From a virus, in IMG/VR virus record IMGVR_UViG_3300006190_000937, positions 1 through 20,442 of that record: DNA of 20,442 nt; one strand, given 5' to 3'. Below the pieces are notes generated by a model that searched no databases, was not told where the DNA came from, and worked only from the letters and a program-made list of their open reading frames with translations. Below, one piece after another: positions 3,857 to 12,140 of this stretch. The stretch's first letter is position 1. Every line of letters starts with the position of its first letter. The position numbers and the translations under genes are program-made.

Positions 3857-6112
3857 ATGAAAGGAACCATATTCTCATCAGATTTTTGTATTGATGAATC
3901 AAATAATGTTAGGTTATTAGAGATTAACACCGATACAGCCTTTATTACAACTACATTAGGTAGTGAAGTAAATGTAGCTCCTATAATTAACATGATGACA
4001 GGAAGTATAGATTCTGTGTATGTTGTATATAAAGATGCCCACCATGCTAATTTTGTAGAATACCTTTCACAATCTGTAGCTACAGCACATAGTCACTCCT
4101 TTACAGCTATAGCAGAACAAATAGACAGTATATACCCTACAGTCCCTACCGATGCCGCAAATAAGTTTATAATAAGATTAGCTTACGATGAAAATGCTAT
4201 ATTAGATTCTACATATGCTAAAGGTAAGTTTAATTTATTGAATTTATTCAATGATCAGTCTAATGCAGACAGCGTAGTAGAGTTCTACTATTCATCTTCA
4301 GCAACAGGAGTAATAGATAACATAGACAAGACAAATTTCTCACCTAATAATGTTATTGATGCAGTAACTAAAAAAGCTACTGAAGCTCATCAGACTATGA
4401 GAATGTATAAAATAGGCCATCCAGCTTCATCATCAGCTGATAGGTGGGATAATTTTATTAATACTGTTAAGACTGAAGACTCAATGATACAGCAGTATTA
4501 CTATAATGCAGATGAATTAGAAGATAGTAAGATTACTTCTATTAGGCAGTTTACTTATGTATATGGATCTGATTTAGAGCAAGTAAGTTTAGGTTGTTAT
4601 AAAGCAGCAACATACTTTGATTTACCGACAACACTAAACGATAATTATGATCATCGTATTAATAATATGATGGGTACTTACTACAAGTATTGTTTTGCTA
4701 CTAACCACATTGCAGAAGCCACATATGGGGTAAGTCACTTTGAATCTTTGATAAGCAGCTCAGGAACCTTTATAGCTGCAGCAGATGTATCAGCATCAAA
4801 CGAAGTACTCTCTTATTTCGTAAGTGGCTCACCTCAAGATAATGACAATTGGTATGATTGGAGTTATGCTGGAACATCCCTACCGGGTGGTTCACATGCA
4901 ACAGGCTCTACTGTTATATCAACTTTCCCAGTTTCTTCTAGTAATAATTTACTAACAGAGATTATACTCTCAACTGGAGACACAGTTTACACTTCTCCAA
5001 ATGAAGCATTTTTAGTTCGTAATGAAATAAAAGATGTTATAGAATGGGAATATGCTCTTAACCTATACCCAACCAGTCATTCAGTTTGGGTTTCCGGAAG
5101 TGGTTTTACATCCATCGCAGAGGGAAATACAGGAGTAACAGTAGCAGATGTACAATATGAACAGATTAATGTGGAAGATGAAGATGCTTATCAATTATCT
5201 GGTTCAAATGTGATAGTTCACAATGCTCCATGCTTTGTTGAAGGAACAATTGTAACTATTAGAACCGGAGAAGGAGACTTAGTACAGAGACCTATTGAAT
5301 CATTAAAATTAGGTGAACAGGTACTTTCTTACAACCTAGATAATGAAGCACAGGAATATAAAGGAGTAACTAAAATACAAACTAAAGAAAACCAAGACGT
5401 AGTACAGCTATCATTTTCAAACAATTCAGAAGTAACTTGTACTTATGATCATCCATTCTTTGTAAGCGGAAGCAGCTGGTCAGCCTATACGCCATCACTA
5501 AGTGAGCATACAGACAGAGCTTTAGCTATTGGAGATAAGTGTTTACATAAAAACGGAGAATATTATACAATTTCAGCAATGGACGAAAATGAAGATACCT
5601 CCACAGTATATAATTTAGATGAAATAGCAGACAATAATAACTTCTTTGCAGGAGGATTCTTAGTACATAATAGAGCAGCACCTTGTTGTTTTGTAGAAGG
5701 AACAGAGATAACTTTAGGAAATGGAGATGTTAAGAACATAGAAAACATAGTAGTAGGGGATATAGTTGAAACTTGGACTGAGGAAGGAATAGTATCTAGA
5801 TCTGTACTAGCTTTAGAACCAACAGTCGTAGGTGATAGAGAATTATATACCATAAAAGGAGATGGAATCTGCAACATAGAATTTACACCAGAGCATCCAT
5901 TCCTAACCCAGAAAGGTTGGAAAGCAATAGAACCATTAGACCTGTTAACTGGAGAATTACAAGTAGGAGATTCTATTAATTGTTGTAAGGAATGGAAAGA
6001 AATCAAAACTATTACAACAGTAGATACAACACCAGAAACAAAAGTATACAATTTTACAGTATCTGAACATCATAACTATATTGCCAACGGCATTGTAGTT
6101 CATAATAAGTAA
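3857..6112 (+). CDS. ATP-grasp-like protein with three C-terminal Hint (intein-like) modules
   Basis: This is a 751-aa protein with a stop codon 12 bases before the ATG. Residues 1-24 carry SSDFCID...LLEINTDTAF, like the metal-binding D..D..LEIN element of ATP-grasp enzymes; FIIRLAYDENA, MIQQYYY and SIRQFTYVYG further along fit strands of an ATP-grasp core. The C-terminal half has three intein-like ends. Module 1 is degenerate (YTSPNEAFL at 378-386 where block B should be, ending VHN at 454-456). Module 2 runs C459-FVEGT, block B TYDHPFF (529-535), end VHN605. Module 3 runs C611-FVEGT, block B TPEHPFL (677-683), end VHN750, followed by one lysine. Modules 2 and 3 keep Cys1, the block B His and the terminal His-Asn but lack a Cys/Ser/Thr at +1, so peptide cleavage is more likely than splicing. 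Enzyme role and substrate are inference. Confidence 0.8.
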   Translation: MKGTIFSSDFCIDESNNVRLLEINTDTAFITTTLGSEVNVAPIINMMTGSIDSVYVVYKDAHHANFVEYLSQSVATAHSHSFTAIAEQIDSIYPTVPTDAANKFIIRLAYDENAILDSTYAKGKFNLLNLFNDQSNADSVVEFYYSSSATGVIDNIDKTNFSPNNVIDAVTKKATEAHQTMRMYKIGHPASSSADRWDNFINTVKTEDSMIQQYYYNADELEDSKITSIRQFTYVYGSDLEQVSLGCYKAATYFDLPTTLNDNYDHRINNMMGTYYKYCFATNHIAEATYGVSHFESLISSSGTFIAAADVSASNEVLSYFVSGSPQDNDNWYDWSYAGTSLPGGSHATGSTVISTFPVSSSNNLLTEIILSTGDTVYTSPNEAFLVRNEIKDVIEWEYALNLYPTSHSVWVSGSGFTSIAEGNTGVTVADVQYEQINVEDEDAYQLSGSNVIVHNAPCFVEGTIVTIRTGEGDLVQRPIESLKLGEQVLSYNLDNEAQEYKGVTKIQTKENQDVVQLSFSNNSEVTCTYDHPFFVSGSSWSAYTPSLSEHTDRALAIGDKCLHKNGEYYTISAMDENEDTSTVYNLDEIADNNNFFAGGFLVHNRAAPCCFVEGTEITLGNGDVKNIENIVVGDIVETWTEEGIVSRSVLALEPTVVGDRELYTIKGDGICNIEFTPEHPFLTQKGWKAIEPLDLLTGELQVGDSINCCKEWKEIKTITTVDTTPETKVYNFTVSEHHNYIANGIVVHNK

Positions 6113-6126
6113 CCTATTTATAGTAT

Positions 6127-6270
6127 ATGAGTAAACCAACATTTTTTAAGAAAGTAGCTAATACAGAAGTAAACAGTAGAACTGTCTACGCAGTTACAGA
6201 TGCTCAAAAAGCAACAATCAACACGACTGTAAACAATTTCTTAACTTACTTTAAAGCTAAACATAGCTAG
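6127..6270 (+). CDS. 47-aa hypothetical protein
   Basis: The ATG at 6127 lies 14 bases after the Hint protein stop and opens a 47-codon frame ending TAG at 6268-6270. CTATTTAT (6114-6121) lies 5 bases upstream, a motif also placed before 1540 and 3857. The protein is basic at its N-terminus (KPTFFKK) and Asn/Thr-rich in the middle, and it ends with an amphipathic aromatic stretch (NNFLTYFKAKHS). No family is recognised. Its place between two Hint-encoding genes suggests a shared process; nothing in it shows which. Confidence 0.55.
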   Translation: MSKPTFFKKVANTEVNSRTVYAVTDAQKATINTTVNNFLTYFKAKHS

Positions 6271-6300: not shown

Positions 6301-6786
6301 ATGGCAGTAGGAAAACAACATAACATTTACCAAGTCACAAGAGGCGTTCCAGTAGGAAATAATGGTCAGACAAAATCTGAAGATTTAGTAGCAGAAAACT
6401 GGATCGCATATCATTCATTTGAACATAGTAATTCGATATCCGAAAGAGAAATCACTGGAATTACTTTAGAAACAATGCCAACGGTTAACGTTGACTTTGC
6501 AGACAGAAGAGTAAAGTGTTCAACTAATCAAATCTTTTACGTAGAAGGTGGAACATGGGCTTGTCACGATCCATCAATCACTAATTCGACCAGTACACAG
6601 CTTGTAGTAGGTAACAAAGTTTTAACTAACGAAGGCACTTACATAGAAGTAACTGCAATCGCAACATGTGATGATCATGAGTTAGTTCATATCGACTTTG
6701 GAGGAGGCACATATGACGTTAACGATAACAACAATTACTTCGCAAGTGGAGTATGTCTTGGAAGATTTAATAGAGACGCAAATTAA
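6301..6786 (+). CDS. Free-standing Hint-fold paralogue lacking processing residues
   Basis: This 161-aa protein aligns along its length with Hint module 2 of the upstream 751-aa protein. ITGITLETMPTVNVDF matches GVTKIQTKENQDVVQLSF; VKCSTNQIFYVEGGTW (71-86) matches VTCTYDHPFFVSGSSW; LVVGNKVLTNEGTYIEVTAI matches LAIGDKCLHKNGEYYTISAM; DNNNYFASGVCLG matches DNNNFFAGGFLVH. The catalytic positions are all changed: no Cys at the N-terminal position, block B His to Gln77, terminal His-Asn to Gly154-Arg155, then six extra residues. Autoprocessing should therefore be impossible and the fold kept for another role, such as binding or structure. Start at the ATG at 6301, 30 bases after the 47-aa gene, with only an AT-rich leader. 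The Hint relationship is seen directly; the role is unknown. Confidence 0.72.
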   Translation: MAVGKQHNIYQVTRGVPVGNNGQTKSEDLVAENWIAYHSFEHSNSISEREITGITLETMPTVNVDFADRRVKCSTNQIFYVEGGTWACHDPSITNSTSTQLVVGNKVLTNEGTYIEVTAIATCDDHELVHIDFGGGTYDVNDNNNYFASGVCLGRFNRDAN

Positions 6787-11431: not shown

Positions 11432-12140
11432 ATTAGGATTACTAACAGACATTATTAAAGAGACTCATAACCAATGGAGATTTATATTTGAATCACCACT
11501 ATACGATGAGATTAAATACACACCAGGACAACTAATCACCCTTACAATTAGAGAACCAGGAGCAATGACTCAATTTACAAGAAGTTATTCTATAGCTTCA
11601 TGGCCTGACGGTTCTAATACTTTTGAACTTATTATTACTAACTTAGAAGGAGGAAGGATGTGCGATTATCTTTTCAACAAAGCTAAGATAGGAGATGAAG
11701 TAGAGTATAGAGGACCGATGGGAGTATTTACTCTTCCGGAAAAGATAGATAGAGACATATACTTTGTATGTACTGGATCAGGTATTAGCCCTTTTAGGTC
11801 AATGATCAATTGGATAACTAAGAATAATATAAAGACTAAGAAGATTAAACTTATCTTTGGCACTAGAGTAAAAGAAGATACTTTATATTATGAAGAACTC
11901 AGACAATTAGAGAAAGACAATGCTAATTTTGAATACTTACCAGTATTATCTAGAGAAGAAGTAGATGGATACGATCATGGATATGTTCATGATGTCTACT
12001 TAAAACTCATAGAAGGAAGAGAAGATAAGCCTTTATTTTACCTATGTGGCTGGAATATAATGATAGAAGAAGCTAGATACTGGTTGGACACTAATGGGTA
12101 TAAGATGAAAGAAGATATTAGAGTTGAGATATTTGGATAA
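11424..12140 (+). CDS. FAD-binding NAD(P)H oxidoreductase, ferredoxin-NADP reductase family
   Basis: This protein is 238 aa from the ATG at 11424; an earlier in-frame start at 11409 would deepen the overlap. It is complete for the family. YTPGQLITL is the first barrel strand. RSYSIAS (53-59) is the R-x-Y-S FAD motif. GGRMCDYL (77-84) binds flavin phosphate. VCTGSGISPFRSM (115-127) is the G-x-G-x-x-P nucleotide-binding loop. LIFGTR and YLCGWNIMIEEA (206-217) are the C-G-x-x-x-M-x-x-x NAD(P)H motif, and it ends VEIFG. No 2Fe-2S domain is fused. It would pass electrons between NAD(P)H and a ferredoxin or flavodoxin, possibly to oxygenases or to redirect host redox power. It is the last gene of the operon, five bases before the terminator stem. 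Confidence 0.87.
   Translation: MNELGLLTDIIKETHNQWRFIFESPLYDEIKYTPGQLITLTIREPGAMTQFTRSYSIASWPDGSNTFELIITNLEGGRMCDYLFNKAKIGDEVEYRGPMGVFTLPEKIDRDIYFVCTGSGISPFRSMINWITKNNIKTKKIKLIFGTRVKEDTLYYEELRQLEKDNANFEYLPVLSREEVDGYDHGYVHDVYLKLIEGREDKPLFYLCGWNIMIEEARYWLDTNGYKMKEDIRVEIFG

Follow-up and report, generated by a model that had tools for sequence, protein, structure and literature searches.

A selected, free-standing Hint paralogue predicted to be non-catalytic beside an active Hint gene in a phage lineage

Nearly all that is known of Hint domains concerns modules that cut or splice themselves once, and the locus described here raises the question of what a free-standing Hint protein might be kept for once its processing residues have been replaced. 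The window, a whole IMG/VR viral contig of 20,442 bases, contains a 161-aa open reading frame (6301..6786, +) that an earlier note had read as a duplicated Hint fold repurposed next to an active copy. This frame starts 188 nt past the stop of a 751-aa Hint-bearing protein (3857..6112, +), a spacing given in the note and borne out by the ORF coordinates, and a 47-aa ORF (6127..6270, +) sits between the two.

The same phage is represented by a 57-kb contig (L003), in which the 161-aa protein is 100% identical. An orthologue (11457-11942) was found in a 73-kb contig (L006) with the same order of Hint gene, 47-aa ORF and 161-aa dead Hint, in which the large protein is 66% identical to the 751-aa protein. 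Relatives of the 47-aa ORF are 44-49 aa long and mostly end in a near-invariant YFKAKH[LST]; in the related phages that were read, they lie downstream of the Hint gene. Counts of promoters and terminators near the 161-aa gene were close to shuffled expectation. The nearest named phage by DUF932 (67%), Flavobacterium phage immuto, carries no Hint annotation in the region downstream of that gene.

Relationship to the neighbouring Hint modules

The 751-aa protein consists of a conserved N-domain (residues 1-290) followed by three C-terminal Hint modules. The N-domain had no significant match among Pfam and PDB profiles; an ATP-grasp-like motif in it (LLEINTDT) is not claimed, the D-Ala ligase match being weak and present in only 1 of 15 members (E 0.21). 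Module 1 (4715..5224, +; residues about 291-456) is an internal degenerate Hint that matches a Hint profile by hhalign (94.1%, E 1.3e-7) and the BIL structure 2lwy (E 7.9e-6). In the ten sequences aligned, it is without Cys1 and TxxH and keeps the terminal His-Asn, and it may still cleave at its own C end. Module 2 (5231..5671, +; Cys1, TYDH and His-Asn intact) and module 3 (5687..6106, +; Cys1, TPEH and His-Asn intact, then Lys and the stop) keep every processing residue in the eleven proteins dissected. The terminal Asn is followed by Arg, Phe or Lys in place of Cys, Ser or Thr, and BIL domains without one of the latter three at that position mainly cleave and splice less (PMC7664689).

That the 161-aa protein aligns with module 2, as the earlier note had claimed, held up in two comparisons. 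BLASTP matched its residues 55-153 to residues 509-603 of the 751-aa protein, within module 2 (E 6e-13, 30% identity). The profile-to-profile comparison proposed in that note, made with hhalign between the two dead orthologues and 17 active Hint modules of related phages, gave a probability of 97.7% (E 1.6e-12) over residues 18-153, a significant match where the note had said that none would speak against it. In addition, an HMM built from active modules only recovered the dead gene in six-frame translation at 1.1e-10 in the 57-kb sister contig and at 3.0e-9 in L006. Taken alone, the 161-aa protein had no direct Hint match in Pfam by hmmscan, so that the relation is visible only through the paralogue and through profile comparison. 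The AXH family was not matched by the single protein either, and PHROG 4487 (E 0.018) and 417 (0.2) were rejected as below significance.

Structure prediction pointed the same way. An AlphaFold2 model from 18 aligned sequences reached pLDDT 77 and pTM 0.72, with an alignment containing active Hint rows, which favours a Hint fold and makes the model not fully independent; the two dead rows alone gave no usable model (pLDDT 31). In Foldseek, the best PDB match of the 18-sequence model was BIL2 of the Tetrahymena BUBL1 locus (6y75, E 1.8e-9, TM 0.79/0.84), followed by inteins, with the hedgehog domain lower. Both BLASTP and a tree place module 2 as the closest paralogue, the branch to the active modules being long (2.77) and the exact branching unsure. 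An origin from module 1 was considered and rejected, as hhalign of module 1 against the dead pair gave a probability of 0.2, and the tree and BLAST favour module 2. The 161-aa ORF is thus confirmed, by sequence comparison and a predicted fold, as a stand-alone Hint-fold paralogue of module 2. Its predicted fold resembles that of the BIL/Hint autoprocessing domains (Tetrahymena BUBL1 BIL2, 6y75; C. thermocellum BIL, 2lwy) over the full domain, and the phage modules paralogous to it match BIL structures at 1e-16 to 1e-24. In contrast to these domains, it is free-standing and is without Cys1, TxxH, terminal His-Asn and exteins.

The replacement of each processing residue, described in the earlier note, is seen in the alignment and recurs in the L006 orthologue (68% identical). 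Where the catalytic Cys1 sits in active modules, both orthologues have an Ile (Ile9, codon 6325..6327, +), preceded by residues 1-8, a short N-terminal extension with no cargo domain (6301-6324, +). In the former block B, RRVKCSTNQIFY (residues 69-80; 6505..6540, +; 12/12 identical in L006), alignment with active modules sets Ser74-Thr75-Asn76-Gln77 against TYDH and Ile78 against the next Pro, such that Ser74 and Gln77 replace the Thr and His. The terminal His-Asn is replaced by Gly154-Arg155 (6760..6765, +), again as in L006. A conserved Asn157 lies two residues farther on, with no preceding His and only 4 residues after it. At 15 columns invariant in 16 active modules, the module-2 residue is kept at 3 in the 161-aa protein and at 1 in the L006 protein. 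The features that define an autoprocessing domain, a Cys or Ser nucleophile at position 1, Thr-x-x-His and a terminal His-Asn, are all absent. Given what is known of Hint chemistry, the 161-aa protein, which has neither catalytic residues nor an extein that would be worth releasing, should be unable to auto-process.

Distribution and other degenerate Hint proteins

A survey of co-occurrence, which the earlier note had also proposed, gave a divided answer: the two genes are linked in the window phage and in L006, yet the 161-aa gene is present in only these two of the 18 contigs with a Hint gene (found via conserved N-terminal peptides and via the 47-aa neighbour). It is missing from the other 16, a provisional absence as the contigs are incomplete; it was not found without a Hint gene, again among incomplete contigs. 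A partner present in 2 of 18 is not an obligate one for the 751-aa protein, and the active protein does not need the 161-aa gene. A tblastn search of 50,697 phage records with the 161-aa protein gave no match, its family profile found no relative in bacterial genomes, and the viral contigs held no further relatives beyond L006 and the sister contig.

Other non-catalytic Hint proteins were detected. In L059 (contig IMGVR_UViG_3300025653_004519), a different free-standing Hint, 168 aa long and akin to module 3 (L059:11223-11729), no longer has Cys1, the block-B His (the segment reads TPTVSF) or the terminal Asn (its end reads HSK); it lies about 5 kb from the L059 Hint gene, and searches elsewhere gave no relative. 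Module 1 is like the 161-aa protein in that it is a Hint that lacks Cys1 and TxxH and has been retained next to active Hints; unlike it, module 1 is in cis and keeps its terminal His-Asn, and no particular closeness between the two was detectable.

A Foldseek search of viral models also returned short Hint-fold proteins, one of them, of 143 aa, from Lactobacillus phage P1. The single significant Hint match across the P1 genome is LVP1_g075 (ANO58004.1), in which Cys1 is replaced by Gly, block B reads TGNQ and the end is VHD. Maenad and Satyr relatives are 59% identical, with an omega of about 0.1 between P1 and Maenad. These degenerate stand-alone Maenadvirus Hints are annotated as hypothetical (KX223815.1 61821-62252, L056:11922-12353; MG765274.1, L074:1420-1929). 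Like the 161-aa protein, the P1, Maenad and Satyr proteins (ANO58004.1, AVH85602.1) are free-standing, have lost Cys1, have Gln for the block-B His and are under selection, but they belong to an unrelated lineage, keep the penultimate His (VHD/AHD end) and, in P1, occur without another Hint.

Stand-alone degenerate Hints therefore recur, and not always alongside an active Hint. The L059 protein, module 1 in cis and the Maenadvirus proteins indicate that phages have retained non-catalytic Hints on more than one occasion. The earlier note had known of no described role for such a protein next to an active one, and this statement needs softening in view of the L059 dead Hint, the P1, Maenad and Satyr degenerate Hints and the internal dead module. 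No stand-alone inactive Hint protein of a phage was described in the literature searched, subscription papers aside, which is weak evidence.

A further parallel came from eukaryotes. Modules 2 and 3 (window:5231-6106; L006:10375-10812) match the Pfam AXH family PF08517 (2.6e-14 for the phage Hint modules, to 4e-14 in L006), module 2 far above the cut-off, and the A4 alignment profile matches the ataxin-1 structure 4j2j at 3e-13. The AXH domain of ataxin-1 is a protein-interaction module and not an autoprocessor (PMC4145211, PMC3796545). The AXH domains of ataxin-1 and HBP1 differ from phage Hints in that the match is shorter (about 100 residues), in being eukaryotic and in forming part of larger proteins. 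These profile matches suggest that AXH descends from Hint or has common ancestry with it, a link not stated in the papers searched.

Proposed role of the 161-aa protein

At even confidence, we read the 161-aa protein as a Hint pseudoenzyme that acts by binding, its likeliest target being the Hint protein encoded next to it or the products of that protein. In this scheme, a module-2 Hint would have been duplicated as a free-standing gene just downstream, in the lineage of the window phage and L006, and the duplicate would have lost its nucleophile, its block-B Thr and His and its terminal His-Asn, keeping the fold and remaining under purifying selection since. As no autoprocessing is expected, such a protein most likely acts by non-covalent binding, presumably through the old active-site cleft, its most conserved region, and the likeliest ligand would be either the 751-aa protein or what its cleavage releases. 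The 161-aa protein would thereby supply in trans an inert Hint domain like the one that module 1 provides in cis, and this domain would cap, time or assemble the processed product. The pseudoenzyme reading draws its support from the paralogy, the shared losses, the selection on the gene, the gene order, module 1, the independent dead Hints and AXH. A pseudoenzyme-enzyme pair within the Hint superfamily was not described in the literature searched.

The main rival is a ligand unrelated to the Hint protein: the pseudo-Hint would be kept for a job apart from its neighbour, on a host protein, an RNA or a virion part, and the linkage would record only an origin by local duplication. We consider this a serious possibility, if short of probable. 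A degenerate stand-alone Hint is kept in P1, Maenad and Satyr, and in P1 the same profile detects no other Hint, so that a pseudo-Hint does not require an active Hint to act on; in L059, about 5 kb separate the dead Hint from the Hint gene; and the AXH domain, as a precedent, binds transcription regulators (PMC4145211). Against it stand the position of the 161-aa gene, which in both phages comes directly behind the Hint gene and its 47-aa neighbour, and the fact that conservation falls on the former active-site face, the part of a Hint domain that holds peptides.

The sequence comparisons support a free-standing Hint pseudoenzyme under selection, with parallels in L059, Maenadvirus and module 1. 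Non-cutting Hints that stand alone would then occur in three or more separate phage settings, with selection shown in two, and suggest that the fold also serves as a plain binding domain; the AXH profile link hints at a similar step taken in animals. Dead and active Hints in one operon-like block provide small, expressible natural pairs for testing regulation in trans. The wider proposal that phages repeatedly turn Hints into free-standing pseudo-Hint regulators, which would dock on an active Hint and control the time and place of cleavage, is speculative and on present evidence doubtful.

Conservation and the less probable readings

If the 161-aa gene were a functionless duplicate of module 2 in decay, relaxed selection and broken frames would be expected. 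The loss of all catalytic residues, the long branch to the active modules and the presence in few contigs would each suit this reading. Between the window and L006, however, the gene has dN 0.245 and dS 1.62, giving an omega of 0.15 (bootstrap 0-0.25), from a single comparison of the only two orthologues and with dS near-saturated. The two proteins are 68% identical, compared with an omega of 0.27 and 58% identity for module 2 and an omega of 0.24 and 62% identity for module 3 between the same phages, indicating that constraint on the 161-aa protein is at least as strong as on the active modules. The frame is intact, of the same length and with the same losses in both phages. The earlier note had allowed that an intact catalytic copy in related phages would make this a simple decayed copy; no related phage has an intact stand-alone version, the gene being either dead or absent. 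These comparisons indicate that the gene is under purifying selection and is not a decaying copy; decay is already contradicted by the data and highly improbable. The repurposing claimed in the note is thereby strengthened, with an orthologue carrying the same losses, a low dN/dS and a conserved former active-site region.

The last of these was seen in a comparison of the 161-aa pair in which the ex-catalytic segments (blocks A, B and F/G, with boundaries picked after the alignment was viewed) are identical at 37 of 43 positions versus 71 of 117 elsewhere (Fisher p 0.002). In the module-2 pair, the corresponding counts are 25/38 versus 59/108, a difference that is not significant. Both orthologues also share eight Cys and His residues (His38, His42, Cys73, Cys88, His89, His126, His130 and Cys152), and a metal site formed from these is possible. 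Conservation of Cys73, Cys88, His89, His126, His130, Cys152 and Asn157 could be taken as a sign of a Hint with an altered but working mechanism, using another nucleophile (Cys88 or Cys152) or cyclisation of Asn157. Class 3 inteins, defined by a WCT motif with a block-F Cys, do replace Cys1 by this other Cys (PMC7664689). We regard an altered mechanism as highly improbable in the 161-aa protein: neither the block-B His nor the penultimate His is left, its alignment, read by eye, has no Cys of the class 3 kind at block F, and with only 8 residues before the domain and 4-6 after it there is nothing to process.

Least probable of all is a virion structural subunit built from the Hint fold, for although this phage group has Hint-tailed proteins that include appendage-like ones (a 533-aa ORF of the L006 contig and the L111 protein), no structural genes were recognised beside the 161-aa gene and nothing links its product to virions.

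The Hint modules of this phage group are themselves variable. Module 3 with its lead-in is 93-94% identical in DNA between L006:10778-11265 and both L025:7465-7952 and L032:9700-10190, in phages whose large proteins have otherwise diverged far more, those of L025 and L032 being 38-39% identical to the 751-aa protein; this contrast indicates that the terminal Hint module has recently been exchanged between the L006, L025 and L032 phages. In L070:3722-5965, the third Hint module is of another type, with EPQH in block B and an end reading ...HIVSGLGDN. The appendage-like proteins of L110:1592-3190 (-) and L111:2-2302 also have a Hint module as their last part, in which His-Asn lies close to the C-terminus, and that of L110 carries PSVTPS repeats.
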